64,000 nt of DNA, taken from positions 930,001-994,000 of the forward strand of contig NZ_CP043430.1 in the NCBI RefSeq assembly GCF_008271365.1, in the 5' to 3' direction. The position numbers and the translations under genes were made by a program. Each line of letters opens with the position of its first letter. Position 1 is the stretch's first letter. This DNA comes from Microbacterium sp. 1S1. Lineage in GTDB: Bacteria; Actinomycetota; Actinomycetes; Actinomycetales; Microbacteriaceae. Positions 18,431-54,961 of this stretch are shown in pieces. The notes under the pieces are model-generated. The model was not told the DNA's origin. It searched no databases and was given only the letters and a program-made list of their open reading frames with translations.

Positions 18431-19123
18431 TCAGGCCGTCCGGGGTGCGGCACGACGCCGCCCGGCGCCCACGACGAGGGCGGCGGTGGCGAGGATGATC
18501 GCGGCGATGAGGAGCACCCAGAGCGCGACGCCGCCGTAGCCGCCGTTCAGCGCGGGATCGAGGAAGGGGTACGGGTACCACCACGGGTTCCCGGTCGCGG
18601 GAGCGATCACGAGGTTCGCACGGAGGAGTGTGTAGACGACCCAGACGATCGGGAAGATCGCGGCGATGGCCACGGTGCCCCAGCCGAGCGCGCGACGGCG
18701 CGGGGCGACCAGCACGTCGGCGAGCAGGACGAGCGGGATCACGACGTGCAGCACCTCGTTCGACCAGGCGACCGTGGCACCTTGCGGCAGCGCGATCCCG
18801 CGGAGCAGCGTGTTGTAGACGACGCCCGTGACGATCATGTAGGTGCTCGCGCACACGAGCAGCGTCGCCAGCCAGGTCGGCTCCACCCTCGCGTCGCGGT
18901 GCCTCAGCCCCCTGATCCCGCCGATGGCCAGCACCACCGCGGCGAGCACGTTGGAGAGGATGGTGAAGAAGCTGAAGAAGTTCGCGGCCACGGTGGGCAG
19001 GTGCCCGCCCCACGCGGTGTCTGCGGCGAGGGCGATCTCCAGTGTGCGCACGAGCTGCGCCACGATCGCCGCCGTCGCGAGCGCCGCCGCCGTGAGCCGG
19101 ACGTAGGGCCACCACCGCCTCAT
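18431..19123 (-). CDS. Pr6Pr family membrane protein
   Basis: The ATG at 19123 follows GGAGGTGGCG and gives 230 residues with six hydrophobic helices. The pattern [50 protein letters not shown] and NPWWYPYPFLDP matches the Pr6Pr (FAR-17a/AIG1-like) integral membrane family. Its role in bacteria is not known. A TACAGT box lies 16 nt before the start. Longer upstream frames run through a palindromic repeat and are rejected. Confidence 0.85.
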   Translation of the reverse strand: MRRWWPYVRLTAAALATAAIVAQLVRTLEIALAADTAWGGHLPTVAANFFSFFTILSNVLAAVVLAIGGIRGLRHRDARVEPTWLATLLVCASTYMIVTGVVYNTLLRGIALPQGATVAWSNEVLHVVIPLVLLADVLVAPRRRALGWGTVAIAAIFPIVWVVYTLLRANLVIAPATGNPWWYPYPFLDPALNGGYGGVALWVLLIAAIILATAALVVGAGRRRAAPRTA

Positions 19124-43539: not shown

Positions 43540-44439
43540 ATGACCGATTCGCTGCCCGGCGCGCACATGCGCGAAGAGCTCCGCTCCCAGCCGCAGATGT
43601 GGGCCACCGCCGCCGAGCTCACCGCCGAGCAGGCCCTGCTGCCGGCCCGCGGATCACGGGTCGCGGTCGTCGGCTGTGGCACCTCGTGGTTCATGGCCCA
43701 GTCGTACGCCGCGCTGCGCGAGTCGTCCGGTCAGGGCGAGACGGACGCGTTCGCGGCCTCCGAGGCCTTCGTCGACCGTGGCTATGACGCCGTCGTCGCG
43801 CTCACCCGCTCCGGCACCACGACCGAGGTGCTGGAACTGGTCGACCGCATCAAGGGGCGCACCCGCACGATCGGCGTGATCGGCGACCCCGACTCGCCGC
43901 TCGTCTCGCTCGTCGACGATGCCGTGCTGCTGCCGTTCGCGGACGAGCAGTCGGTCGTCCAGACCCGCTTCGCCACGACCGCGCTCGCCCTCTTCCGCGC
44001 GTCGCTGGGCGAAGACCTCTCCGGGGCGATCGCCGACGCGGCGGCCGTGCTCGCAGAGGACAGCGATGACACCGACCTGCGCGATGCCGAGCAGTACACG
44101 TTCCTCGGACGGGGATGGACGATCGGCCTAGCGCACGAGGCAGCGCTCAAGCTGCGCGAGTCGTCGCAGTCGTGGACCGAGGCCTATCCGTCGATGGACT
44201 ACCGCCACGGTCCGATCGCCATCGCCGCTCCGGGCCGGGTGACCTGGCAGTTCGGGGAGGCGCCGGAAGGACTGGCCGCGGAGGTGCGCGCCACGGGTGC
44301 CCGCTTCGAGCACCGCGCGATCGACCCCCTCGCCGACCTCGTGCGCCTGCACCGCACGGCCCTCGACCGGGCCGTGGCCCGCGGGCTCGACCCCGACCAG
44401 CCGCGCAACCTCACGCGATCCGTCATCCTGGATGCATGA
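43540..44439 (+). CDS. SIS domain protein, probable amino-sugar-phosphate isomerase/deaminase
   Basis: This 299-residue protein has two SIS domains. GSRVAVVGCGTSWFMAQSYAALRESSGQGE and ALTRSGTTTEVLELVDRIKGR form the phosphosugar site; YTFLGRGWTIGLAHEAALKLRESSQSWTEAYPSMDYRHGPI forms the second. The layout matches AgaS/GlmS-isomerase-like proteins that convert an aminosugar-6-phosphate to a keto-sugar-6-phosphate and ammonia. It heads the operon with kinases and an aldolase, consistent with the first intracellular step after phosphorylation. AAAGG precedes the ATG. Confidence 0.88.
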   Translation: MTDSLPGAHMREELRSQPQMWATAAELTAEQALLPARGSRVAVVGCGTSWFMAQSYAALRESSGQGETDAFAASEAFVDRGYDAVVALTRSGTTTEVLELVDRIKGRTRTIGVIGDPDSPLVSLVDDAVLLPFADEQSVVQTRFATTALALFRASLGEDLSGAIADAAAVLAEDSDDTDLRDAEQYTFLGRGWTIGLAHEAALKLRESSQSWTEAYPSMDYRHGPIAIAAPGRVTWQFGEAPEGLAAEVRATGARFEHRAIDPLADLVRLHRTALDRAVARGLDPDQPRNLTRSVILDA

Positions 44440-44464
44440 CGCCAGCGATCCCCGGAGCCGAGCG

Positions 44465-45457
44465 ATGAGCCCGAACGACGCGGCGGACGCGGTCCCCGAC
44501 GCGGCGAGGGACGAGACCGGCGACACGCTCGCCGCAGTGCGCACGCTCGGCGCCGGGGCGCCCGTCCTCGCCTTCGACGTCGGCGGGACCGACATCAAGT
44601 CGGCGCTGTTCGATGCGGACGGACGGGCGCGCGGACTCCGCCGCACGCCGACCCCCACCGCGGACGGCGATCGCACGCCCGCGCTGCTCGACCGGCTGGA
44701 GGTCCTCGCCGCGCAGCTCCGCGACGAGCATCCCGATGTGACGCCCCGCGCCGCCGGGCTCGTGGTGCCCGGCATCGTCGACGCCGCCGCGGGGGTCGGC
44801 GTGTTCGCGAGCAACATGGGCTGGCGGGACGCACCGCTCCGCGCACTCGCCTCGGAGCGCCTCCGCCTCCCCGTCGCCTTCGACCACGACGTCCGCGCCG
44901 CGAGCTGGGCGGAGCACGAACTGGGTGGCGCGCGGGCCTACGACGACGCGGTGATCCTCGTGATCGGCACCGGCATCGCCGGGGCCCTGCTCGTCGGGGG
45001 GCGACCATACACGGCCGGAGGCTATGCCGGTGAGATCGGGCACTCCCCGATCGCCGACGGTCCGGTCTGCCCCTGCGGTGCCCGCGGGTGCCTGGAGGCC
45101 GTGGCGTCGGCGGGAGCCATCGCGCGCCGTTACCACGAGGCCACGGGGACGGCTCCGGACGGGGCCAAGGACGTCATCGCCCGGGCGGCCGCCGGGGATC
45201 GGATCGCCGCAGGCATCTGGGATTCCGCGCTGGACGCTCTCACCCTGTCGCTCGCGCAGCTGACCGCCGTCGTCGCCCCCGAGGCCGTCGTGATCGGCGG
45301 GGGGCTGTCGCGGGCGGGCGGTGCGCTCTTCGACGAACTGCGCACCCGCCTCGCCGCCCGCCTCAGCTTCCACCGCCTCCCCGCGCTCGTCCCCGCCGAG
45401 CTGTCCGGCAACGCGGGACTGATCGGCGCCGCCCTCCGCGCCCGGGAGCTCGCATGA
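44465..45457 (+). CDS. ROK family sugar kinase
   Basis: The ATG at 44465, behind CCGGAG, gives 330 residues; a GTG- or ATG-type start up to 31 nt earlier is possible. DVGGTDIKSALFD is the ATP loop, FDHDVRAASWAEH holds the catalytic Asp, and CPCGARGCLEAVAS is the zinc motif. Because the kinase loop is intact and no HTH is present, it is a true kinase, likely phosphorylating the imported sugar at O6. The stop overlaps the PfkB start by 4 nt (ATGA). Confidence 0.9.
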   Translation: MSPNDAADAVPDAARDETGDTLAAVRTLGAGAPVLAFDVGGTDIKSALFDADGRARGLRRTPTPTADGDRTPALLDRLEVLAAQLRDEHPDVTPRAAGLVVPGIVDAAAGVGVFASNMGWRDAPLRALASERLRLPVAFDHDVRAASWAEHELGGARAYDDAVILVIGTGIAGALLVGGRPYTAGGYAGEIGHSPIADGPVCPCGARGCLEAVASAGAIARRYHEATGTAPDGAKDVIARAAAGDRIAAGIWDSALDALTLSLAQLTAVVAPEAVVIGGGLSRAGGALFDELRTRLAARLSFHRLPALVPAELSGNAGLIGAALRARELA

Positions 45458-46398
45458 TCCTCACCGTCACCCCGAACCCCGCGCTCGACCTCACCTGGCA
45501 CGTCGATCAGCTCGTCGTGGGCGGGACGCACCGCGCCGACACCGGGGCGTCCCGCGCCGGCGGCAAGGGTCTCAACGTCGCCAGGGTCGCCCACGCCGAG
45601 GGGGCCTCCGTCCTCGCGCTGACCACGGCCGGCGGTCCCGTCGGCGCGGAGTTCGCCGCGGAACTCACGGCCAGCGGCGTGCCCCATGTGCTCGTGCCCG
45701 TCGCGGCCGATACCCGTCGGAGCATCGCTCTCGTCGACGAGGCCGCGGGCGACACCACGATCGTCAACGAGCGCGGGGTCAACCCGACCGATGCCGAGTG
45801 GGGCGGCCTCCTCGCGGAGGTCGTCGACCGGCTCCCCGGTGCCGGGGCCCTCGTCGTCTCCGGCAGCATCCCGCCGGGGGCGCCGGAGTCGCTCGTCCCG
45901 ATGCTCGTCGCGGTGGGCGCCGACGCCCGGGTCCCCGTGATCGTGGACACCTCCGGTCCGTCGCTCCTGCGCGCCGCCGACGCCGGTGCGACCGTGCTCA
46001 AGCCCAACGCCGCGGAGCTCGCGGAGGCCACCGGCATCGCCGATCCCGTGGAGGGCGCGCGGTCGCTCCTGGCTCGAGGTTCGGAGCTCGTGCTCCTGTC
46101 GCTCGGGGCCGAGGGGATGCTCGCGGTCACCGCGACCGATCTTCTGCACGCCCGGCTCGACGAGCCGCTCGCCGGCAACCCGACCGGGGCGGGAGACGCC
46201 GCGGTCGCAGCCTGCGCCGTGCTCACGGCGGAGGGCGAGCGCGACCCCGAGCTCATCCTCCGTCGCGCCACCGCGTGGTCGGCGGCCGCCGTGCTCATGC
46301 CGCTCGCCGGCGACATCTCCCCCCGCTGGCGCGCGCTCGAAGAGCAGCTCCACGTCTCCCGTCCCGACCCCGCCTCCTTCCGGAAGGACCCCTCGTGA
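45454..46398 (+). CDS. PfkB family hexose-phosphate kinase (1-phosphofructokinase/tagatose-6-P kinase type)
   Basis: This 314-residue PfkB kinase starts at the ATG overlapping the ROK kinase stop. TVTPNPALDLTWHVDQL and GGKGLNVARVA are the sugar-binding start, and NPTGAGDAAVAACAVL carries the catalytic Asp and anion hole. This subgroup phosphorylates fructose-1-P, fructose-6-P or tagatose-6-P to a bisphosphate. Between a SIS isomerase and a class II aldolase, tagatose- or fructose-6-phosphate is the likely substrate. It overlaps the aldolase gene by 4 nt (GTGA). Confidence 0.92.
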   Translation: MILTVTPNPALDLTWHVDQLVVGGTHRADTGASRAGGKGLNVARVAHAEGASVLALTTAGGPVGAEFAAELTASGVPHVLVPVAADTRRSIALVDEAAGDTTIVNERGVNPTDAEWGGLLAEVVDRLPGAGALVVSGSIPPGAPESLVPMLVAVGADARVPVIVDTSGPSLLRAADAGATVLKPNAAELAEATGIADPVEGARSLLARGSELVLLSLGAEGMLAVTATDLLHARLDEPLAGNPTGAGDAAVAACAVLTAEGERDPELILRRATAWSAAAVLMPLAGDISPRWRALEEQLHVSRPDPASFRKDPS

Positions 46399-47327
46399 CC
46401 CTCGTCTCCGCTCGGGAGCTCGTCTCCGCGGCTGCCGCCGCCGGCACCGGCATCGGCGCCTTCAACGTCATCCACCTGGAGACCGCGGAGGGTCTCGTCC
46501 GGGCGTCCGCGCTCGCACAGCTCCCCGTGATCCTGCAGATCTCGCAGAACTGCGCCGACTACCACGGCGGTCTGGAGCCCATCGCCCTCGCGACGCTCGC
46601 CGCGGCGCGACGCGCGGAGACACCGGTGGCGGTGCACCTCGACCACGCGGAGCGACCGGAGCTCGTCGATGAGGCCGTCGCCCTCGGCTTCGGCTCGGTC
46701 ATGTTCGACGGCGGCGCGCTGCCTTACGACGAGAACGTGGCCGTGACCGCAGAGGTCGCCGCCCGTGCCCGCGCCGCGGGGGTCTTCGTGGAGGGCGAGC
46801 TCGGCGAGGTGGGCGGGAAGGACGGTGCCCACGCTCCCGGTGTCCGCACCGATCCCGACGAGGCGCGGGCGTTCGTCGCCGCGACCGGGGTGGACGCGCT
46901 CGCCGTGGCCGTGGGGTCATCGCACGCCATGACCGACCGCACCGCCTCGCTCGACCTCGACCTCATCGCCCGACTGCGCGCGGCCCTGGGGGGTGCCGCC
47001 GCAGACGGGAGCGACGTGCCCCTCGTGCTGCACGGATCCTCGGGGGTGGCCGACGCCGTGATCGCCGACGCGGTGCGCGCCGGGATGACGAAGATCAACG
47101 TCTCCACCCACCTCAACGGGTTCTTCACGCGCGCGGTCCGGGAGGTGCTGGCCGCCGACGAGCGCCTCGTCGACTCCCGCAAGTACATCGCCCCCGCTCG
47201 CACCGCGCTGGCGGATGAGGCCGCCCGGCTGCTGCGGCTGTTCGCGCTGCAGCCGTCGCAGAATCCCACTCCGGTCGCAGAGGATCCGGGGAAGGCTGCG
47301 ACCTCGACGCGAAACGACGACCGGTGA
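46395..47327 (+). CDS. Class II fructose/tagatose-bisphosphate aldolase
   Basis: The GTG at 46395 gives 310 residues. Zinc-ligand and catalytic motifs AVHLDHAERPE, VEGELGEVGGKDG, VGSSHAM and LHGSSGV are present, and KINVSTHLNGFFTRAVREVL follows. It cleaves a ketose-1,6-bisphosphate to DHAP and glyceraldehyde-3-P. GatY/KbaY-type tagatose aldolases and FbaA-type enzymes share these motifs, so the stereochemistry is not decided by sequence. Next in the operon is the DeoR regulator, overlapping by 4 nt. Confidence 0.93.
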   Translation: MTLVSARELVSAAAAAGTGIGAFNVIHLETAEGLVRASALAQLPVILQISQNCADYHGGLEPIALATLAAARRAETPVAVHLDHAERPELVDEAVALGFGSVMFDGGALPYDENVAVTAEVAARARAAGVFVEGELGEVGGKDGAHAPGVRTDPDEARAFVAATGVDALAVAVGSSHAMTDRTASLDLDLIARLRAALGGAAADGSDVPLVLHGSSGVADAVIADAVRAGMTKINVSTHLNGFFTRAVREVLAADERLVDSRKYIAPARTALADEAARLLRLFALQPSQNPTPVAEDPGKAATSTRNDDR

Positions 47328-48100
47328 AGCGCGCGGCCCGACTGCACGCGATCCTCGACCTCCTCGCCGCGGACGGGGAGGTGACGGTGGAGGAGCTGGT
47401 GGAGCGGTTCGGGGCCTCCCCGGCCACCACGCGCCGCGACCTCGACTCCCTCGCCGAACAGCGCCTCCTCACCCGCACGCACGGCGGTGCCGTGGCGCAG
47501 ACCGTCGCCTACGAACTGCCCCTCCGCTACAAGAGCCACCTCCGCACCCACGAGAAGGAGAGCATCGCGCAGGCGGCGGCGGCTCTCGTCACCCCCGGGA
47601 TGGTGGTCGGCCTCTCCGGCGGGACGACGACCACGGCCATCGCCGCCGCGCTCGCTGCCAGTGAAGACCTGGCTGCGGACGGCGGGATCACCGTCGTGAC
47701 GAACGCCGTGAACATCGCCGCGCAGCTGGCCACCCGCCCGGAGATCAAGGTCGTCGTCACGGGCGGCGTCATCCACTCGCGTACGTACGAGCTCGTCGGC
47801 CCGTTCGTCGAGCAGCTGCTCCGCGGTGTGCGGCTCGACATGGCCTTCATCGGCGTGAACGGGATCGACGCGACCGCCGGCGCGACGACCCAGGACGAGC
47901 GCGAGGCAGCCGTGAACCGGATGATGGCGGAGCGGGCACGGCGCGCCGTGGTCGTGACGGATGGCAGCAAGCTCGGCGCTGAGGCCTTCTCCGTGGTCGG
48001 CGGGCCGGACCTCTTCGGCACGATCATCACCGACCGCGCAGCGGATTCGGCCGCCGTGACCGCGCTGCGCGCGGCCGGCTACACGGTGATCCTCGCCTGA
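47324..48100 (+). CDS. DeoR family transcriptional regulator
   Basis: This 258-residue regulator starts with GTG in a GTGA overlap with the aldolase. The N-terminal HTH (RLHAILDLLAADGEVTVEELVERFGASPATTRRDLDSLAEQRLLTRTHGGAV) is followed by the DeoR sensor domain with VGLSGGTTTTAIA, VVTNAVNIAAQL and VVVTDGSKLG, which binds phosphosugars. As the last gene of the operon it is probably an autoregulatory repressor, released by a phosphorylated intermediate. A hairpin terminator follows. Confidence 0.93.
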   Translation: MKRAARLHAILDLLAADGEVTVEELVERFGASPATTRRDLDSLAEQRLLTRTHGGAVAQTVAYELPLRYKSHLRTHEKESIAQAAAALVTPGMVVGLSGGTTTTAIAAALAASEDLAADGGITVVTNAVNIAAQLATRPEIKVVVTGGVIHSRTYELVGPFVEQLLRGVRLDMAFIGVNGIDATAGATTQDEREAAVNRMMAERARRAVVVTDGSKLGAEAFSVVGGPDLFGTIITDRAADSAAVTALRAAGYTVILA

Positions 48101-48130
48101 GGTCGGCAACCGCGCCCTCCCCACGCCCCG

Positions 48131-48163
48131 AGGGCCTCGGCGTCCCCAGATCGCCGAGGCCCT
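48131..48163 (+). terminator. Terminator of the sugar catabolic operon
   Basis: AGGGCCTCGGCG and CGCCGAGGCCCT form a perfect 12-bp stem with a 9-nt loop, 30 nt after the DeoR stop. No U-tract follows. Confidence 0.7.
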
Positions 48164-48306
48164 GCAGGAACGGCGCGGCTGCATACCGCGACCCCCTGAG
48201 CAGATGGTGTCCGTCTCGTCTTCGCGCTCCCCAGCGGCGTTTCCCAGATCCGACGGCGCCTCCCTCGCGCCTCTCCCTTCGAGGCCATTCGCCCGACACC
48301 TTCCGA

Positions 48307-48333
48307 AGAACAGGAGAGAGCGCCCCCTGTTCT
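48307..48333 (-). terminator. Terminator of the CHAT operon
   Basis: AGAACAGG and CCTGTTCT form a perfect 8-bp stem with an 11-nt loop, 24 nt beyond the CHAT stop on the minus strand. A T6 tract (minus strand) lies between the stop and the hairpin rather than after it, so efficiency is uncertain. Confidence 0.5.
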
Positions 48334-48356
48334 GATACCTCGACGCGGGAAAAAAG

Positions 48357-50801
48357 TCAGAATCCGTTGCCGTGACACTGGAATGGGGCGGAAACCCCCG
48401 TCACCGATCCTGCGCGCGCCAGCGCCTCGGCGGGTGAAACCCCCGCAGCGAGCCCCCCGTGCACGGCCGTGAGGAGCTCGCACGCGTCGTCATCGGGCAC
48501 CGAGACCGGGGCCGCGATCACGCAGTCGGTGCCGGCGTGCAGCCACACGCGCGTCATCCCCAGCGCCTCCTCGCCCCAGCGCACCGACGATCGCCCCAGC
48601 TCGCACGCGGACAGCACCACGGTGGGCGGGACGCGGGGGATGAGGTCGACGTCGTAGCCGAACAGGATCCCGTCGGCGAGCTCGAACCCGGAGAAGAGGG
48701 GGTTGTCGACCGCGTGGCGCCCGTGTGCGGCGATGTGGAGGACATCGACGGAGCGCGCAAGGTCCGTGACCGCCGTGACGGTCGCTTCCGAGCCCTGCAG
48801 TGCGCGAGTCGTCCCCCGTCCTTCCCACGGCCCTGCGGCGCGCTCGACCTCCTCGACCGCGCGGGGAACCCGGGGTCCGGCCGCGAATCCCACACGCGGC
48901 GTCGTGACCGTGGCACTCGTGCCGTCGAACCAGCGCGAGGCCGAGGTCGCGAGCGTGAACGGCACCCCGTGCATGCCGGGCATCATCCCCCACGGCACGC
49001 CGCCGAGGATTCCCGGAACGGTGAGGACCAGCCGTCCGGCGCCCCCCGTCGCGCGGCGCATGGGGCCGAGCAGTTCGTCGTCGAGGACTGACAGGCGCGC
49101 CGCCAGCGTGCGTGCGGTCACCGGGCCCATGGCACCGCCGCGGGTGAGCGCAGCCATGTCGAGGTCGGCGCGGAGGCCGTCGAGGGCAGCCCGCACGCGC
49201 GGCCAGGCGAGGTCGACGACGACCGCCCCCTCCGGCTGCACCACGACCCCGTGCAGCCCGGTGCCGGTGTAGACGTACGCCAGCACCGCCGTGTCCGGCG
49301 GGAGGAGCGCGGTCGCCTCCGCCAGTGTCCGGCGCTCTCTCGTCGCCCCGGAGCCGGTGGCGGACCACTGCCGCTCCCGCACCCGGTCGCGGAGCGCGCG
49401 AACCGTGGGATCCGTCGTCCAGTCCGCCCCCGCGAGGTCGGCGCGCAGCATCCGCAGCTCGGCGAGGTCGGCGGCGAGCGCCTCGTCGTGCGGCGGCCGG
49501 ACCGGGGCGACCTGCTGACTGAGGTGCCGGGCGCGCTCGGACCACTCGAAGAGCGTCGCCGGGTCGCGGCGGCGGACGGCCGCGGCGAGTCCCGTGAACA
49601 CGAGGTCGCTGGCGTGCATGGCGACGGACGCTTGCAGATCGAGGGCGCCGAACGATCGCTGCCAGGCGGCCAGCAGGTCGAGCCCGGTGGCAGCGGCCCG
49701 CAGCGCTTCCCCGTCCCGACCTCGCCGCGCTGCCCGGACGGCGCGGACCTCGTGCGACCGGAGGCGCAGCGGCGTCGGGTCGGAGGCGGAGACGCGGGGG
49801 AGGCGCCCGGTACCGTCCCGGCGGGCGCTCAGGCGCAGGGCGGTGGCCTCGGTGCGGAAGCCGCTCCGGTCGAGCTGTTGCGCCACGCGTTCGAACGCCG
49901 CCGCGTCCGCGGGGCGATCGGGACGGAGCCGCTGCCGGGCCTCGAGCTCCACCGCCGCGGCGCGGGCCGCCCAGCCGCTGCTGCCGAGCGCGGTGAAGCG
50001 GCGGGCGGCCGTCCGGGCCGCGCGCTCAGCGGCCCGGGGGTCGTGGCGGACGAGGGAACGGGCGAGGTGGAACTCCGCCTCACCGCGTGCCTGGCGCATC
50101 CGCTGCGCGCCGAACTGCACGGCCACGCGGGCGAGCAGGGCCTCCGCCTCGGTCGTCAGTCCGGCATCGCGAAGCACCTCCGCGCGGTCGAGGTCGCTGA
50201 TGGCGGTGGCGAGGGCACTGGTGGCCGCGAACGTCGGACGGGACTGGGCCATGAGGCGCAGGGCCGACACGAGGTCGCCTCCGAGGAGGGCTGCGTAGCC
50301 GAGATTGTGGGTGGCCTCGGCGAGGGAGTCGTGGTCTTCGTGCGCCTCGTAGATCGCGATCGCCCGTCGGAGGTCGGCCGTGCAGGTCTCCAGACGGTGA
50401 CGCTGCATCCGCACCACCGCCCTGTTCATCAGGCAGTTCGCGAGCGCGGTGGTCTCGGCGCCGGTGGCGGCGAGAGCGTCGATCGCGGCGGTCAGGCACC
50501 CCTCGGCCTCGTCCAGCCGTCCGCCGTGCATGAGGAGGGCGCCGAGCTGGCCGCCGAGGAGGGCCACGGTCTCGGCCTGCAGCCCGTCCCTGCCCAGCGC
50601 CTCGCGGCACAGCGACTCCGCTGCCGCGGGCTCTCCGATCTGCGCGAGCACGTACGCGGTGGTGCCGTCGATGCGCGCGCGGAGGTCGGCGTCGTCGGTG
50701 CGGGCGGCGGCCTTCTCCAGTTCCCGCCGGGCGCGCGTGAACTGTCGGGCGTTCGCCGCCTCGACGCCGCGCCGATGCAGCGCGCTCGCGGACAGGGGCA
50801 T
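48357..50801 (-). CDS. TPR-CHAT caspase-like protease
   Basis: This 814-residue soluble protein has an N-terminal helical repeat array (~residues 1-300, TPR-like: RRGVEAANARQFTRARRELEKAAA, ATHNLGYAALLGGDLVSALRLM) and a central helical region. A C-terminal CHAT protease domain (~510-810) has the His in VLHIAAHGRHAV and the Cys in TVVLSACELGRSSVRWGEEALG. Both catalytic residues are present, so it should be an active caspase-clan cysteine peptidase. No signal peptide is seen. It is the last gene of a unit with a subtilase, a small beta-domain protein and a sigma factor, 48 nt after the subtilase. CHAT proteases with repeat arrays often execute regulated cleavage in conflict or stress systems; that role here is inferred. 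Confidence 0.88.
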   Translation of the reverse strand: MPLSASALHRRGVEAANARQFTRARRELEKAAARTDDADLRARIDGTTAYVLAQIGEPAAAESLCREALGRDGLQAETVALLGGQLGALLMHGGRLDEAEGCLTAAIDALAATGAETTALANCLMNRAVVRMQRHRLETCTADLRRAIAIYEAHEDHDSLAEATHNLGYAALLGGDLVSALRLMAQSRPTFAATSALATAISDLDRAEVLRDAGLTTEAEALLARVAVQFGAQRMRQARGEAEFHLARSLVRHDPRAAERAARTAARRFTALGSSGWAARAAAVELEARQRLRPDRPADAAAFERVAQQLDRSGFRTEATALRLSARRDGTGRLPRVSASDPTPLRLRSHEVRAVRAARRGRDGEALRAAATGLDLLAAWQRSFGALDLQASVAMHASDLVFTGLAAAVRRRDPATLFEWSERARHLSQQVAPVRPPHDEALAADLAELRMLRADLAGADWTTDPTVRALRDRVRERQWSATGSGATRERRTLAEATALLPPDTAVLAYVYTGTGLHGVVVQPEGAVVVDLAWPRVRAALDGLRADLDMAALTRGGAMGPVTARTLAARLSVLDDELLGPMRRATGGAGRLVLTVPGILGGVPWGMMPGMHGVPFTLATSASRWFDGTSATVTTPRVGFAAGPRVPRAVEEVERAAGPWEGRGTTRALQGSEATVTAVTDLARSVDVLHIAAHGRHAVDNPLFSGFELADGILFGYDVDLIPRVPPTVVLSACELGRSSVRWGEEALGMTRVWLHAGTDCVIAAPVSVPDDDACELLTAVHGGLAAGVSPAEALARAGSVTGVSAPFQCHGNGF

Positions 50802-50849
50802 CCGTCCAGGATGCCGTGCCGCGGTGGTCGCACGGAAGGGCGCGAGACG

Positions 50850-52421
50850 TCAGGTCCTCTCGTGCGGAGTCGGCAACGCCGACAGGACCGCCGCAACCGC
50901 CTTCGCGGCGACGGCCGGTGTCACCCCCACGGCGGGGACGGCACCGAGCTGAGCCGCGACGCGGCCGGCGATGAAGGGAGCGGCGAACGACGTACCGCTC
51001 CACACCGCGAAGCCGCCCCGGTAGTCGTCGGGATCGAGGGTCTGGCGGGGCAGCCCGTCGATGTCCGCGCGGGTGGCCGCCTGCGCGCCGCCGACGAAGG
51101 CCGGCGACGTGCTGACGACGGCGGCGCCCGGGGCGTAGACCTGCACCCACGGGCCGACGTTCGAGAACAGGGCGACGGAGCGTGCCGACGGGTTCAGGGC
51201 GCCGACCGACACGTGCGGGGCGCCGTCGTCGGACGGCAGCCCGTTGTCGGCGCCGGGCCACGGCCAGAGCGACGCCGGGAAGGACGGGCGGTCGATCGCG
51301 TCGTTGCCCGCCGAGCAGACCACCACGCAGCCCAGCTCCCTGGCCTTCGCGAGCAGCTCGTACAGCGTCGTGCTGAACAGTCCGTCAGTCGGCGTCTCGT
51401 GGTAGTAGCTGAGGGACAGGTTCAGCACGTCGATCGGGAAGCCGGTCTTCGGGTTCTCCCGGTGCCGTCGGAGCAGTTCCACGACCTGCGCCACGGTCTC
51501 CAGGAGGGTGCTCTCGTCGACCACGCCCAGCGCCCCGGCGACGCGGATCGAGAGGATGTCGGCGTCCGGAGCGGCCTGACGCACGATCCCGGCGATGAAC
51601 GTGCCGTGCCCGGCGACCGCGTCGATCTCGCCGTCGAGCTGGCCGTACAGGTCCGGGTAGCGTTCGGGATCGGCGTCGTCCGTGAAGCCCACAGGGACGC
51701 CGTCGAGCTCGACGTGCCGGGTGACGATGTCGGACGGCAGCCATGCGTGCTCGCCGCAGCCCGTGTCGAGGATCGCCACGACGGGCCGCCGTCCCCTCCT
51801 CGGAGCGGCCGCGCGCGCCGGGGCAGGGCCGAGCCAGGTGACCGGCTGCCGCGCCCCGCGTCCGGGCTCCAGATAGTCGTCGCTGCCGCCGCCACCCGGT
51901 GCCGCGCCGCGGACGGGGTTCGTCCGGGTGAACGGGTTCGTCCGGGTGAACGGGTTCGTCCGGGTGAAGGGATTGAGCCCGACCGGATCGATCGACAGCA
52001 CGTGCTCGAGGCTGGTCCGCGGCATCGTCGAGCGGGACAGGCGCCGCGCGCGCTGCAGCACACGCCACGCGTCCGGAGCCACGGGGGACTCCCCGCGGGT
52101 CGGCTCATCCGGCGTGGTCAGGCGCGCCCGGAGGAACCCCGCTACGCCGGGCACGAGCTCGCCGTTGCCGACCGCTCGCTCCCGGTCTTCGATCTCCAGC
52201 CGCCAGCCGAAGGAGTCGGCGGCGTCCCGCAGGGCGCGCAGTTCGCGGTCGTACGCCTCCTGCTCGTCGAGGGCGCGTGTGATCAGCAGGCGCTCCGGCA
52301 GGTACGCGGTGGGGAACGCTCGGATCCCGTCCACCGGTTCCGTACTCGGGTCGAGGGCGGTGCCGCGGCGGATCGACCCCTCCGCGCGGTCCTGCCAGGT
52401 CCATCCCTCGGGCTGCTCCAT
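50850..52421 (-). CDS. Cytoplasmic S8 family serine peptidase (subtilase)
   Basis: This 523-residue subtilase lacks a signal peptide and opens MEQPEGWTWQDRAEG. An N-terminal ~140-residue helical part and a linker with three NPFTRT repeats precede the catalytic domain. The triad is intact: Asp in VVAILDTGCGEHAW, His in GHGTFIAG, and Ser in WSGTSFAAPFIAG; the oxyanion Asn lies in VVCSAGNDA. The last helices are Ala-rich. It is in one unit with an ECF-like sigma factor upstream and the TPR-CHAT protease downstream. Lack of secretion suggests an intracellular processing role, possibly for the CHAT protein; this is inferred. Confidence 0.9.
   Translation of the reverse strand: MEQPEGWTWQDRAEGSIRRGTALDPSTEPVDGIRAFPTAYLPERLLITRALDEQEAYDRELRALRDAADSFGWRLEIEDRERAVGNGELVPGVAGFLRARLTTPDEPTRGESPVAPDAWRVLQRARRLSRSTMPRTSLEHVLSIDPVGLNPFTRTNPFTRTNPFTRTNPVRGAAPGGGGSDDYLEPGRGARQPVTWLGPAPARAAAPRRGRRPVVAILDTGCGEHAWLPSDIVTRHVELDGVPVGFTDDADPERYPDLYGQLDGEIDAVAGHGTFIAGIVRQAAPDADILSIRVAGALGVVDESTLLETVAQVVELLRRHRENPKTGFPIDVLNLSLSYYHETPTDGLFSTTLYELLAKARELGCVVVCSAGNDAIDRPSFPASLWPWPGADNGLPSDDGAPHVSVGALNPSARSVALFSNVGPWVQVYAPGAAVVSTSPAFVGGAQAATRADIDGLPRQTLDPDDYRGGFAVWSGTSFAAPFIAGRVAAQLGAVPAVGVTPAVAAKAVAAVLSALPTPHERT
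51916..51969. repeat. Triple 18-bp tandem repeat in subtilase gene
   Basis: Three consecutive 18-nt units (GGGTTCGTCCGGGTGAAC; the last ends AAG) encode the NPFTRT repeats in the linker before the subtilase domain. Near-identity of the units suggests recent slippage expansion. Confidence 0.85.
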
Positions 52422-52469
52422 CGATCATCCTCTCCATCGTGACGCCGGCGACATCGTCGGCGTCGAGGG

Positions 52470-52925
52470 TCACAACTCGAACTGCGGCGTCTCGAGGGTG
52501 CGGGTCTCGTCGCCGACCGTCGCCGTCAGGCGCACCCGGCTCATGCCCGGCGGCACCTCGTCGAACACGAATCGACCGGTCTCCGCCGGTGTCGTGCGAC
52601 GTTCCCGCTTGCCTTGCCGCAGCACGATCTCCGCGGCGGCGGTGTCCACCCAGCCGTCCACCCGCCGCCGTCCGGAGGCGGTCGTCGTGACGTGGAGGAG
52701 GACGCTGGTGCCGCCGTCGCTGAACTGGAGCGTCAGGGCGTCCGTCTCGCCGCGGATCGCGCCGAGCGGCCCTTCCACGAGGGTGAGCAGGGCGTACTCG
52801 CGGTTGAGCCCGTCCGCCGCGACCGCCGCGACCATTCGATCGATCAGTCCGGCAGGAACAGGGTCGACCGCTCCCCAGAGGCTGCGCAAGCGCGCGAACA
52901 GCCGGGCGTCGTCTTCATCGCTCAT
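52470..52925 (-). CDS. Small beta-domain protein coupled to the sigma factor
   Basis: This 151-residue soluble protein overlaps the sigma factor gene by 4 nt (ATGA) and precedes the subtilase by 48 nt. Its N-terminal ~45 residues are helical (RLFARLRSLWGAVDPVPAGLIDRMVAAVA), in the place of an anti-sigma-like segment. The C-terminal part is beta-rich, with GRFVFDEVPPGMSRVRLT resembling carboxypeptidase-regulatory/CnaB-like domains. No zinc HxxxCxxC motif of classical anti-sigma factors and no membrane helix is seen. A sensor or modulator role for the sigma factor is inferred from position. Confidence 0.65.
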   Translation of the reverse strand: MSDEDDARLFARLRSLWGAVDPVPAGLIDRMVAAVAADGLNREYALLTLVEGPLGAIRGETDALTLQFSDGGTSVLLHVTTTASGRRRVDGWVDTAAAEIVLRQGKRERRTTPAETGRFVFDEVPPGMSRVRLTATVGDETRTLETPQFEL

Positions 52926-53554
52926 GATCGTCCCTCCGTCCGGGTGGCCGGGGTGTCGAGGAGGTCGCGAAGCTTCGCGAGGCAGCGGCTCCGGGTCGGG
53001 CCGATGCTGCCGACGGGCATGGACAGGTCGCGAGCGAGGCGGGCGTAGTCAGGGCGGTCCTCGAAGGCGATCACGCGGAGGAGGCGCTGGCATCGCTCGG
53101 CGAGACGACGGACGGCGGCCCAGAGCCGGCGGTTCTCATCGTCGAGCGTGGCGTGCTCCTCCGCGGACGCCTGCTCGGGAAGGAGCACGTCGAGGTCGTC
53201 GGATTCCGCGGTGTCGATGCGCCCGTGCGCTTTGCCGACCTTCCAGGCTTCGCGGCGAGCCGTGGTCGTCAACCAGGCGGAGACGGCGCGCGGATCGGCG
53301 ATGGCCCCGTGGCCGCGCACGAGCTGGAGCCAGGTGGTCTGCACGACGTCCTCCGCGAGGGTGCGTTCGAGGCCGTAGGCGCGCACGACGTGCCACAGCA
53401 CGGGGGTCATGAGCCGCACCAGTTCGTCCATCGAGCGGCCGTCGCCATCGCGCCAGGCATCGAAGAGGTCCGCGGCGCGTTCCCAGCGTGCGCGCCCGTC
53501 GTCGGATGCCGGATCGGAGGCGGCGCCGGGGGCACCGTCGATCATGAAGCCCAT
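52922..53554 (-). CDS. ECF-like RNA polymerase sigma-70 factor
   Basis: The ATG at 53554 gives 210 residues; the open frame continues up to 53611, but that part is hydrophobic and not sigma-like. Region 2 is visible as ELVRLMTPVLWHVVRAYGLERTLAEDVVQTTWLQLVRGHGAI, and region 4 as RRLAERCQRLLRVIAFEDRPDYARLARDLSMPVGSIGPTRSRCLAKLRDLL. It opens the four-gene unit with the beta-domain protein, the subtilase and the TPR-CHAT protease. A perfect TGTGATCACA palindrome (53555-53564) abuts the start codon. Autoregulation is plausible, but no clear GGAAC/CGTC promoter pair is seen. Confidence 0.9.
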   Translation of the reverse strand: MGFMIDGAPGAASDPASDDGRARWERAADLFDAWRDGDGRSMDELVRLMTPVLWHVVRAYGLERTLAEDVVQTTWLQLVRGHGAIADPRAVSAWLTTTARREAWKVGKAHGRIDTAESDDLDVLLPEQASAEEHATLDDENRRLWAAVRRLAERCQRLLRVIAFEDRPDYARLARDLSMPVGSIGPTRSRCLAKLRDLLDTPATRTEGRS

Positions 53555-53662
53555 TGTGATCACACCCACCAGGAGCACGGCAAGAGCCCCGTGATACATG
53601 GCGCGGTCCAAGAATTCCGACGGCCGTTCCGTGGACCCGCGATGCCGTCGCTAGTCTCCACC

Positions 53663-54961
53663 TCAGTCCGCCTCGTACCGGGCGGCGTGCGCGGCCCATC
53701 GTGACTCGACCGGGAGGCTGCGGAGGGCGCGGTTCCCGATCGCGAGGACGGCGGCCACCACGCACAGGGCCGCGCAGATGAGGATGGTGCCCTGTCGTCC
53801 GAGCCCGGCCAGGCCGAAGCCGGCGATGAGCGGGGCGAGCGGCATCGCCCCCATCGCGAGGACCCCCATGGCGCTGTTCGCGCGTCCCAGCAGACGTGAC
53901 GGCGTGGCCACCATGAAGTAGCCCATCATCCCGGCGTTGAGGGCGGGGACGAGAAGCACCGTGGCACCGAGGACGACGGCGACGGCCCACGGCGCCGACA
54001 CGGACGAGAGCACGATGGTACCGAGGGCGACGACCGTCAGCCCGACGATCGTGAGTGGCCCCGCCGGGATCCGCGGGACGAGCAGCGGGGCGACGATCGC
54101 ACCGGCGAGCATCACCGCGCCGATGGCGGCGCTGACCGTCCCGATGAGCAATTCCGAGTGGCCCGCCTGCTGCAGCGCGTAGACGGCGGTGGTGATCGCG
54201 GCATTGAAGCCGAGATTGACGATGGTCATGATGAGCATCACGCCGCCGAGGTCGGGGCGCGACAGCAGCCAGCCGAACCCTTCGCGGAGTTCCCGCCGGG
54301 CGTTCGGGCGAATCGCGGGTGCGTCGAGGCCCGCGTCCTCCTCGGCGCCGGTGTCGGTGATGCCCGCACGTCTGGTCTGGCGGCCGAGCAGCCCGGCGGT
54401 CACGGCCGCGACGAGGTGGCAGGCGGTCATGACGACGCCGACGAGCCAGCCGCCCACGCCGAGCAACAGCCCGCCGAGCGGCCCTCCGGCGAGCTGGAGG
54501 GCCGCATCGCGCCCCTGGTTCGCGGCCTGCGCGCGCCCCATCGCGTCGTCCGGGACGATCTCCTTCAGCGCGCTCTCCCCGGCGACGTCGAACAGGCCGC
54601 TCCGGGCCGCGAGCAGCACGTCGATCACGAGGAGGGTGGCGAAGGTGAGGGATCCGCTGACGGCGAGCAGCGTGAAAGCCCCGGCCAGCACGATGCCCAG
54701 GAGCGAGCCGACGAGCATGAGCACGATGCGCCGATGCCGGTCCGCGAGGATCCCGCCCCAAACGGTGAGCAGCACGCGCGCGACCATCCCCGCCCCCGCG
54801 ATGATGCCGGCCTGCGCGGGATCGTTCGTGACGATGAGGGCGAGGAGCGGGACGGCGAACCCGAACAGTGCGGAGGCGAGTCCCTTGCTCGTATCGCTGA
54901 CGAGCCACGTGAGGTAGCGCGTGTTTCGCCACAGGCGGTGGGGGGTCGTCGTCGTGCTCAT
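53663..54961 (-). CDS. MFS transporter
   Basis: The ATG at 54961 gives 432 residues with about twelve helices. The MFS loop motif GGILADRHRRIVLML, VLLAARSGLFDVAGESALKEIVPDD and QAANQGRDAALQLAGGPLGGLLLG mark it as a MdfA/enterobactin-exporter-type (MFS_3) drug or siderophore exporter. It is divergent from an ArsR-like regulator, with an inverted repeat between, and is probably its target. A TATCGT box ends 6 nt before the ATG, which suggests a leaderless transcript. Confidence 0.9.
   Translation of the reverse strand: MSTTTTPHRLWRNTRYLTWLVSDTSKGLASALFGFAVPLLALIVTNDPAQAGIIAGAGMVARVLLTVWGGILADRHRRIVLMLVGSLLGIVLAGAFTLLAVSGSLTFATLLVIDVLLAARSGLFDVAGESALKEIVPDDAMGRAQAANQGRDAALQLAGGPLGGLLLGVGGWLVGVVMTACHLVAAVTAGLLGRQTRRAGITDTGAEEDAGLDAPAIRPNARRELREGFGWLLSRPDLGGVMLIMTIVNLGFNAAITTAVYALQQAGHSELLIGTVSAAIGAVMLAGAIVAPLLVPRIPAGPLTIVGLTVVALGTIVLSSVSAPWAVAVVLGATVLLVPALNAGMMGYFMVATPSRLLGRANSAMGVLAMGAMPLAPLIAGFGLAGLGRQGTILICAALCVVAAVLAIGNRALRSLPVESRWAAHAARYEAD

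Follow-up and report, generated by a model that had tools for sequence, protein, structure and literature searches.

A candidate protease-gated sigma factor switch with a structured RNA behind its CHAT gene in Microbacterium

We analyzed a 64,000-nucleotide stretch of the Microbacterium sp. 1S1 genome (NZ_CP043430.1, positions 930,001 to 994,000; hereafter the window, whose coordinates are used throughout), focusing on four minus-strand genes that encode an extracytoplasmic function (ECF) type sigma factor, a small soluble protein, an unsecreted S8 subtilase and a TPR-CHAT protease. Our analysis reveals that these genes form a conserved unit with unchanged active-site residues, that one promoter motif occurs in two copies at the locus, and that the copy behind the CHAT gene is followed by a covarying RNA. 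Based on these observations, we propose, with a probability of roughly 60%, that the locus is a protease-gated, self-amplifying ECF54-type sigma switch with the RNA as its dedicated output in Microbacterium. We are more confident than this whole-model figure in the parts that are shown, and less so in the sequence of cleavage events.

One promoter motif in two places, and the RNA behind CHAT

Aligning the DNA upstream of the sigma gene in relatives revealed a strongly conserved block, in which the window carries a predicted sigma-operon promoter, TGTATCA-N16-CTCCT (53571..53598, minus strand), that matches both boxes exactly at a spacing of 16. A second copy with G for the first T, GGTATCA-N16-CTCCT, is located 3' of CHAT on the same strand (48312..48339) and has homologous copies in relatives, the arrangement in Microbacterium being one copy before sigma and a second after CHAT. 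Across 83 loci selected by their CHAT protein (1.25 Mb, both strands), TGTATCA-N16-CTC yielded 117 matches, many of which share ancestry and are not independent, while the same boxes at other spacings (8 to 26) yielded 0 to 6 and a scrambled control none. The strict form TGTATCA-N16-CTCYT was present in 37 of 43 CHAT-bearing genus genomes vs. 3 of 46 without CHAT, and occurs in the window's own genome once only, before sigma.

In a count compiled by hand, in which the motif's first T could also be G and its final bases were unconstrained, 40 of the 43 CHAT-bearing genomes of the genus carry it downstream of CHAT and on the same strand, as do both genus genomes that were drawn later (G401 and G377; genomes are given G numbers and loci L numbers). 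The distance after the CHAT stop was 18–36 bp in 32 genomes (usually about 20 bp) and 54–485 bp in G034, G012, G049, G032 and G008, with the longest distances in G005 (1.5 kb), G001 (7.7 kb) and G066 (10.4 kb); in G023 the contig ends inside CHAT. Among the order's other families, the motif precedes either sigma (L078, L080, L085) or S8 (L083, L086, L089, L091, L100), and in another order similar motifs precede sigma (L212–L214) or S8 (L218, L219). This pairing of motif and sigma gene at the level of sequence suggests that the sigma factor may be what reads TGTATCA-N16-CTC. A scan for a wider regulon in the window's own genome, with one mismatch allowed, was uninformative (270 matches vs. 352 for the reversed control), and 9 matches in other families plus 4 stray genus matches, viewed by eye, showed no common product. 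As side observations, two more motif copies near the G032 locus precede genes that include, by eye, a glycosyltransferase, and one promoter copy in that genome precedes a CTGGGG-containing leader.

Behind the second promoter copy lies a predicted structured noncoding RNA, whose core (48164..48311, minus strand) scores 133.8 bits under covariance model R1—the window copy being one of the 21 sequences from which R1 was built—and is supported by covariation. An extra 3' hairpin with a AUCUGGGGA loop (48131..48163, minus strand) is a perfect inverted repeat with similar counterparts in close relatives, and is likely the end of the RNA, which in Microbacterium measures about 150–180 nt after the second promoter copy. 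RNAalifold analysis of 38 sequences returned 30 pairs, 17 of them with double changes. For a hand-named structure over 21 sequences, 92.4% of cells were paired, and 14 of 32 pairs and 33 cells were changed on both sides; none of 500 shuffles reached this covariation, and slid versions reached 2–6 pairs, a comparison in which the hand-named structure is favored since it was taken from one of the 21 sequences. A diverged group of 11 sequences, aligned separately, covaried at 12 of 23 pairs, and single-strand folding z-scores for three copies were -2.7, -3.7 and -1.7.

The loops of this RNA are highly enriched for one motif, with CTGGGG observed 113 times vs. 13.3 expected in 59 rows and TGGGGA 115 times vs. 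8.6, about 6 of the 59 rows being without it. Repeated CUGGGGA loops of this kind suggest a protein-binding or antisense regulator. Rfam returned no match at the RNA (window positions 47000–54500, E up to 5), nor any at gathering scores in five relative loci. Our first guess, an open reading frame (ORF) behind the second promoter, was dropped: the reading frame is not kept, with anchor-to-anchor distances modulo 3 splitting 14/12/12 over the 38 rows that have both anchors, and the structure covaries. In many rows, the first 155 nt still contain a conserved GTG together with open frames of some 47 codons, which leaves some room for a short peptide.

At E 8e-11 or better, R1 matched 44 of the 83 sources, including its own 21 training copies. 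It also matched weakly, but where the promoter places the RNA, in L111 (E 0.01), L104 (E 0.11) and L037 (E 0.41); the remaining weak rows could mostly be put down to chance or to the hairpin being read in reverse. In 148 relatives it matched 16 genomes, 15 of which are CHAT-bearing genus genomes with the RNA downstream of CHAT on the same strand. The own genome contains a single match, at the locus. Within the window, an additional match on the plus strand (18542–18684; 21.3 bits, E 0.024) is absent genome-wide at E up to 0.001 and is probably chance. The RNA is mostly without a co-directional gene right behind it, the next called ORF being convergent in 40 of 59 rows and none being called in 11.

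Conservation and active sites of the four-gene unit

The first-pass annotation had read a sigma factor, a small beta-domain protein, an unsecreted S8 protease and a TPR-CHAT protease from the letters of the window, and all four genes are present as described, with support from Pfam and NCBIfam that is below threshold for the small protein. It had further taken them to be a joint unit, which their neighborhood in relatives, going beyond chance, bears out. Among 46 Microbacterium-group loci found with the CHAT protein as query, 41 carry all four genes on one strand in identical order, a count that includes three loci with broken frames (L033 and L039 have a frameshift in CHAT, and L047 has breaks in several of the four; the assemblies are complete or draft, and some of these breaks may be sequencing errors). 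Four more loci are cut by contig ends (L026, L032, L040, L041), and in L015 an insertion moves the subtilase gene some 13 kb upstream within one contig, so this locus was rejected as a subtilase-free example. S8 was present in all four genomes that we re-checked, those of L015, L026, L040 and L041. Insertions of unrelated genes, separating either S8 from CHAT or CHAT from the RNA, were also observed in L015, L103, L011, L005, L009 and L113, with the unit order and the RNA kept. In G068 (L105), a full CHAT gene and a downstream partial one of 387 residues are each followed by a promoter and an RNA-like copy.

Outside the genus, order and strand vary: L086 and L087 read S8-sigma-small-CHAT, several other loci have S8 and CHAT divergent, and L092 has neither sigma nor S8 within 13.4 kb. 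Five genomes of another order (L212–L216) keep the Microbacterium gene order. A CHAT homologue is present in 63 of 148 relatives and in 43 of 89 genomes within the genus, and TPR-CHAT relatives occur in 109 of 296 genomes at class level. Named records with a close CHAT relative are nearly all Microbacterium, with one Microbacteriaceae.

The predicted catalytic residues, which had been described as intact, are kept in every readable relative copy. Here we aligned each readable open frame, sampled from the genus up to the class, with its counterpart in the window, counting identical regions once; pieces without a letter at a site derive from cut or frameshifted frames, or from failed pairwise local alignment. 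The CHAT dyad was unchanged at H693 (126/126) and C733 (126/126; 133 pieces, 7 without a letter at each site), and the S8 triad at D219 (101/101), H272 (103/103) and S478 (105/105; 106 pieces, with 5, 3 and 1 without a letter at Asp, His and Ser). No substitution at these residues was found among the distinct readable pieces, in agreement with an earlier count from a multiple alignment in which some genomes had entered twice. Both grounds on which the first-pass annotation would have doubted a joint system, genes seldom adjacent in related genomes and active sites lost in most homologues, are thus contradicted by these data.

At the level of individual genes, the sigma factor gene (52922..53554, minus strand) starts at 53554 or, because relative L016 is without the first ATG, alternatively at 53545, and its product matches TIGR02937 (E 1e-14, residues 61–217) and Sigma70_r2 (PF04542, E 3e-7). 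The small protein gene (52470..52925, minus strand; 151 aa) encodes a soluble protein with a weak CarboxypepD_reg match (E 6e-4, under Pfam's cut-off), a family that also matches 18 of 28 of its relatives at E up to 1. Its AlphaFold model (mean pLDDT, a per-residue confidence score, of 72, with residues 31–61 below 50) predicts a helical N-terminus followed by a beta-sandwich. A comparison with solved chains (E up to 1) and a fold search (E up to 0.001) both returned nothing for this protein; its reading as one of the known anti-sigma factors was dropped, and we consider it a candidate inhibitor or substrate.

The subtilase gene (50850..52421, minus strand; 523 aa) matches PF00082 (E 7e-24) with the predicted triad Asp219-His272-Ser478 and, on inspection by eye, is without a signal peptide. 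Between its N-terminal part and catalytic domain is an (NPFTRT)x3 linker encoded by a perfect 18-bp tandem repeat of 2.9 copies (51916..51968, minus strand). Copies are identical within one protein while the unit changes between species, such as NPHGMT, NPFKG, NPFKM, GYGDGV and PYTQPH (L038, L087, L097, L109, L111), and the linker is possibly a docking or processing site for the TPR protein. The CHAT gene (48357..50801, minus strand; 814 aa) matches PF12770 (E 1e-23) with predicted catalytic residues His693 and Cys733, as well as weak TPR_12/TPR_2 matches in Pfam, and is the only CHAT match in its genome, a single contig of 3.40 Mb (window GC content 66–75%). Of the nine neighbors scanned, seven fall into families of sugar metabolism, transport or regulation, and the other two are without a family match; convergent plus-strand sugar-metabolism genes (43540–48100; SIS, ROK, class II aldolase and a DeoR regulator ending at 48100) face the RNA.

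A proposed switch and its alternatives

In the mechanism that we propose, the sigma factor would be inactive in the resting cell, most likely by means of the small beta-sandwich protein and/or turnover by the subtilase. A trigger would meet the TPR array of the CHAT protease, upon which CHAT and the subtilase would remove the block, probably by cleavage of the small partner, with the subtilase serving either as second protease or as keeper of low sigma levels. The freed sigma factor would then transcribe its own operon, in positive feedback, together with the RNA behind CHAT, both from one promoter type, in a logic that may parallel that of Csx29, Csx30 and their sigma factor without CRISPR. 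That the RNA is actually made, that the small partner is the protein cut and that a signal meets the TPR array are inferences of this model. If the sigma factor does drive mainly its own operon and one RNA, this would be an unusually private regulon with an RNA product, and promoter and RNA would together offer a concrete readout of when the switch fires.

Several observations weigh against this proposal. Two CHAT-bearing genus genomes (G014 and G038) have no motif on the CHAT strand in the stretch examined, and R1 misses 28 of the 43, in which the promoter is otherwise found but the RNA has diverged; a mixed alignment of 25 diverged copies was poor, and the architecture there is less certain. 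The variant locus of G032 (L167, L108) is without S8, and its motif copy 3' of CHAT leads into a gene whose product, judged by eye, is a polysaccharide flippase. Across the 59 rows a co-directional ORF comes next after the RNA in 8. The small protein matches known anti-sigma factors neither in sequence nor in fold. One genome outside the genus and without CHAT (G115) has a marginal R1 match (E 7e-4), which we took as chance rather than as an RNA outside the genus. In the other order, the RNA is absent behind CHAT in L212–L214, and a small protein gene occupies its slot in L215 and L216. That gene (L215:4579-4896 and L216:4417-4734, minus strand) comes behind CHAT after a similar promoter, and its 105-aa product has weak ORF126-like similarity (PF22425, E 0.0012 and 0.016) and is found in 8 of the 59 genomes of its genus. 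The variant locus of G032 likewise hints at outputs of another kind. The output of the switch seems exchangeable, with the RNA in that role in Microbacterium.

The same data allow for other assignments of the RNA. It might be a partner of CHAT rather than an output: by binding the TPR-CHAT protein it would switch the protease on or hold it back, in the way that target RNA acts on Csx29 in Craspase, and so close a loop on the protease. Such a role would fit an RNA that stays downstream of CHAT despite inserted genes (L005, L009, L113, and the kilobase distances in G001 and G066), the duplicated arrangement in L105, the Csx29-like fold of TPR-CHAT and the enriched CUGGGG loops, but genomes of other lineages carry CHAT without the RNA or with a protein in its slot, and Pfam found no RNA-binding domain in the TPR-CHAT protein; we regard this role as unlikely. 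An extension of the idea, to which we give still less credence, is a non-CRISPR RNA-coupled system of caspase/separase-like type, in which the CUGGGGA-looped RNA binds TPR-CHAT and sets its activity, so that the product of the sigma factor acts back on the protease that releases it. RNA-activated proteases of the Csx29 type would then be a CRISPR offshoot of an older regulatory circuit built on sigma and TPR-CHAT. It also seems rather improbable that the RNA serves neighboring genes as a leader or 3' element (attenuator, terminator or mRNA-stability element) instead of having a role of its own: it does end in strong hairpins, leads into a gene 142 nt on in G032 and has the co-directional followers noted above, yet it has its own promoter motif, is mostly followed by convergent genes or by none called, and is kept when up to 10 kb away from CHAT.

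Two further alternatives concern the locus as a whole. The motif could be read by another sigma factor or bound by a regulator, with the ECF54-type sigma controlling other genes, and indeed 22 strict matches in CHAT-bearing genus genomes fall elsewhere or on other contigs. Such a regulator would have to be reconciled with the rarity of the strict motif in the genus without CHAT and its position before sigma or S8 in other families and another order, and we find it very unlikely. CHAT and subtilase domains also occur in defense systems. We considered whether the two proteases might act against phage, or in cell suicide, by destroying host proteins. Among the four proteins, PADLOC matched S8 only, to IetS (E 7e-7) and a generic subtilase (E 1e-6) with partial profile cover, the NCBIfam IteS model giving it 21.5 bits against a cut-off of 900, and the distribution of CHAT in the genus is patchy (43/89). 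Comparison with defense islands, which had been suggested at the outset, nonetheless revealed nothing that marks the locus as a mobile defense island: its neighbors are ordinary, one gene order is kept across genera, and no relative that spans 80% of CHAT turned up on plasmids or phages. Together with the PADLOC results, this leaves the defense reading unsupported, and we assign it little probability relative to the protease-gated sigma switch.

Relation to ECF54, Craspase and other protease systems

The closest fold matches of the TPR-CHAT AlphaFold model (pLDDT 82.7) in Foldseek are separases (E from 2e-12), which share a helical-repeat arm and a caspase-like protease with it, but with TM-scores (a measure of structural similarity) of 0.3–0.5 and 9–13% identity. 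Separases function in cohesin cleavage, a counterpart of which was not seen at the window locus. The top 20 also contained the transmembrane anti-sigma factor DdvA (8rw5, 8rot) at a low TM-score, a model-based likeness that is maybe limited to the repeat arm.

The gene content of the locus is that of ECF54. In the available part of PMC8999054, proteolytic control is proposed for this group, with carboxypeptidase, subtilase and CHAT conserved in its context, a proposal resting on Casas-Pastor 2021 and Huang 2015. As a set, these genes have thus been described before, and the four-gene association is not new. Membership of the window sigma factor in ECF54 rests on gene context, with S8 and CHAT identified by Pfam and the small protein weakly by CarboxypepD_reg; in addition, the TIGR02937 match indicates a minimal ECF sigma (regions 2 and 4). 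ECF54 is further characterized by having no cognate anti-sigma factor, and the small protein, although a candidate inhibitor, matches no anti-sigma family. The interpretation in the first-pass annotation is partly supported, in that the four genes belong together and proteolytic control of the sigma factor had already been proposed for ECF54 in that portion of the source; its two-protease circuit over cell fate is possible. The promoter motif and the RNA, both found at the window locus, are unnamed in the same available part of PMC8999054, and the two-box motif, its second copy and the covarying RNA behind CHAT appear new within what was searched; the promoter pair and the RNA, the more novel part of the locus, were beyond what the first-pass annotation could see. 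The literature searched, with subscription papers mostly outside the search, yielded no experimental work on an ECF54-type locus.

Similar combinations have been described elsewhere. EACC2-caspase systems, as far as the available text of PMC8195603 describes their gene content, likewise place a caspase-type protease beside ECF sigma and TPR neighbors with a proposed output in transcription, but with other adaptor domains, and the word 'subtilisin' is absent from that text. In type III-E Craspase, as presented in the accessible portion of PMC10028731, Csx29 cleaves Csx30, which in turn inhibits an ECF sigma factor; binding motifs for that factor lie within its own locus. The window TPR-CHAT model resembles Csx29 in fold, with Csx29 chains among the Foldseek matches (E about 4e-10 and weaker) and supported by VIA-align, although its sequence matches no solved chain. 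The window locus also differs in that the nine neighbors scanned include no Cas gene (Cas7-11/gRAMP or other; CRISPR arrays were not searched), in the size of the small protein (151 aa, vs. Csx30 residues up to 565 mentioned in that portion of PMC10028731), and in the addition of an S8 protease and a locus-encoded RNA. This likeness to Csx29, Csx30 and CASP-sigma makes the window locus a candidate for the regulatory background of RNA-gated CRISPR proteases, and makes that question testable.

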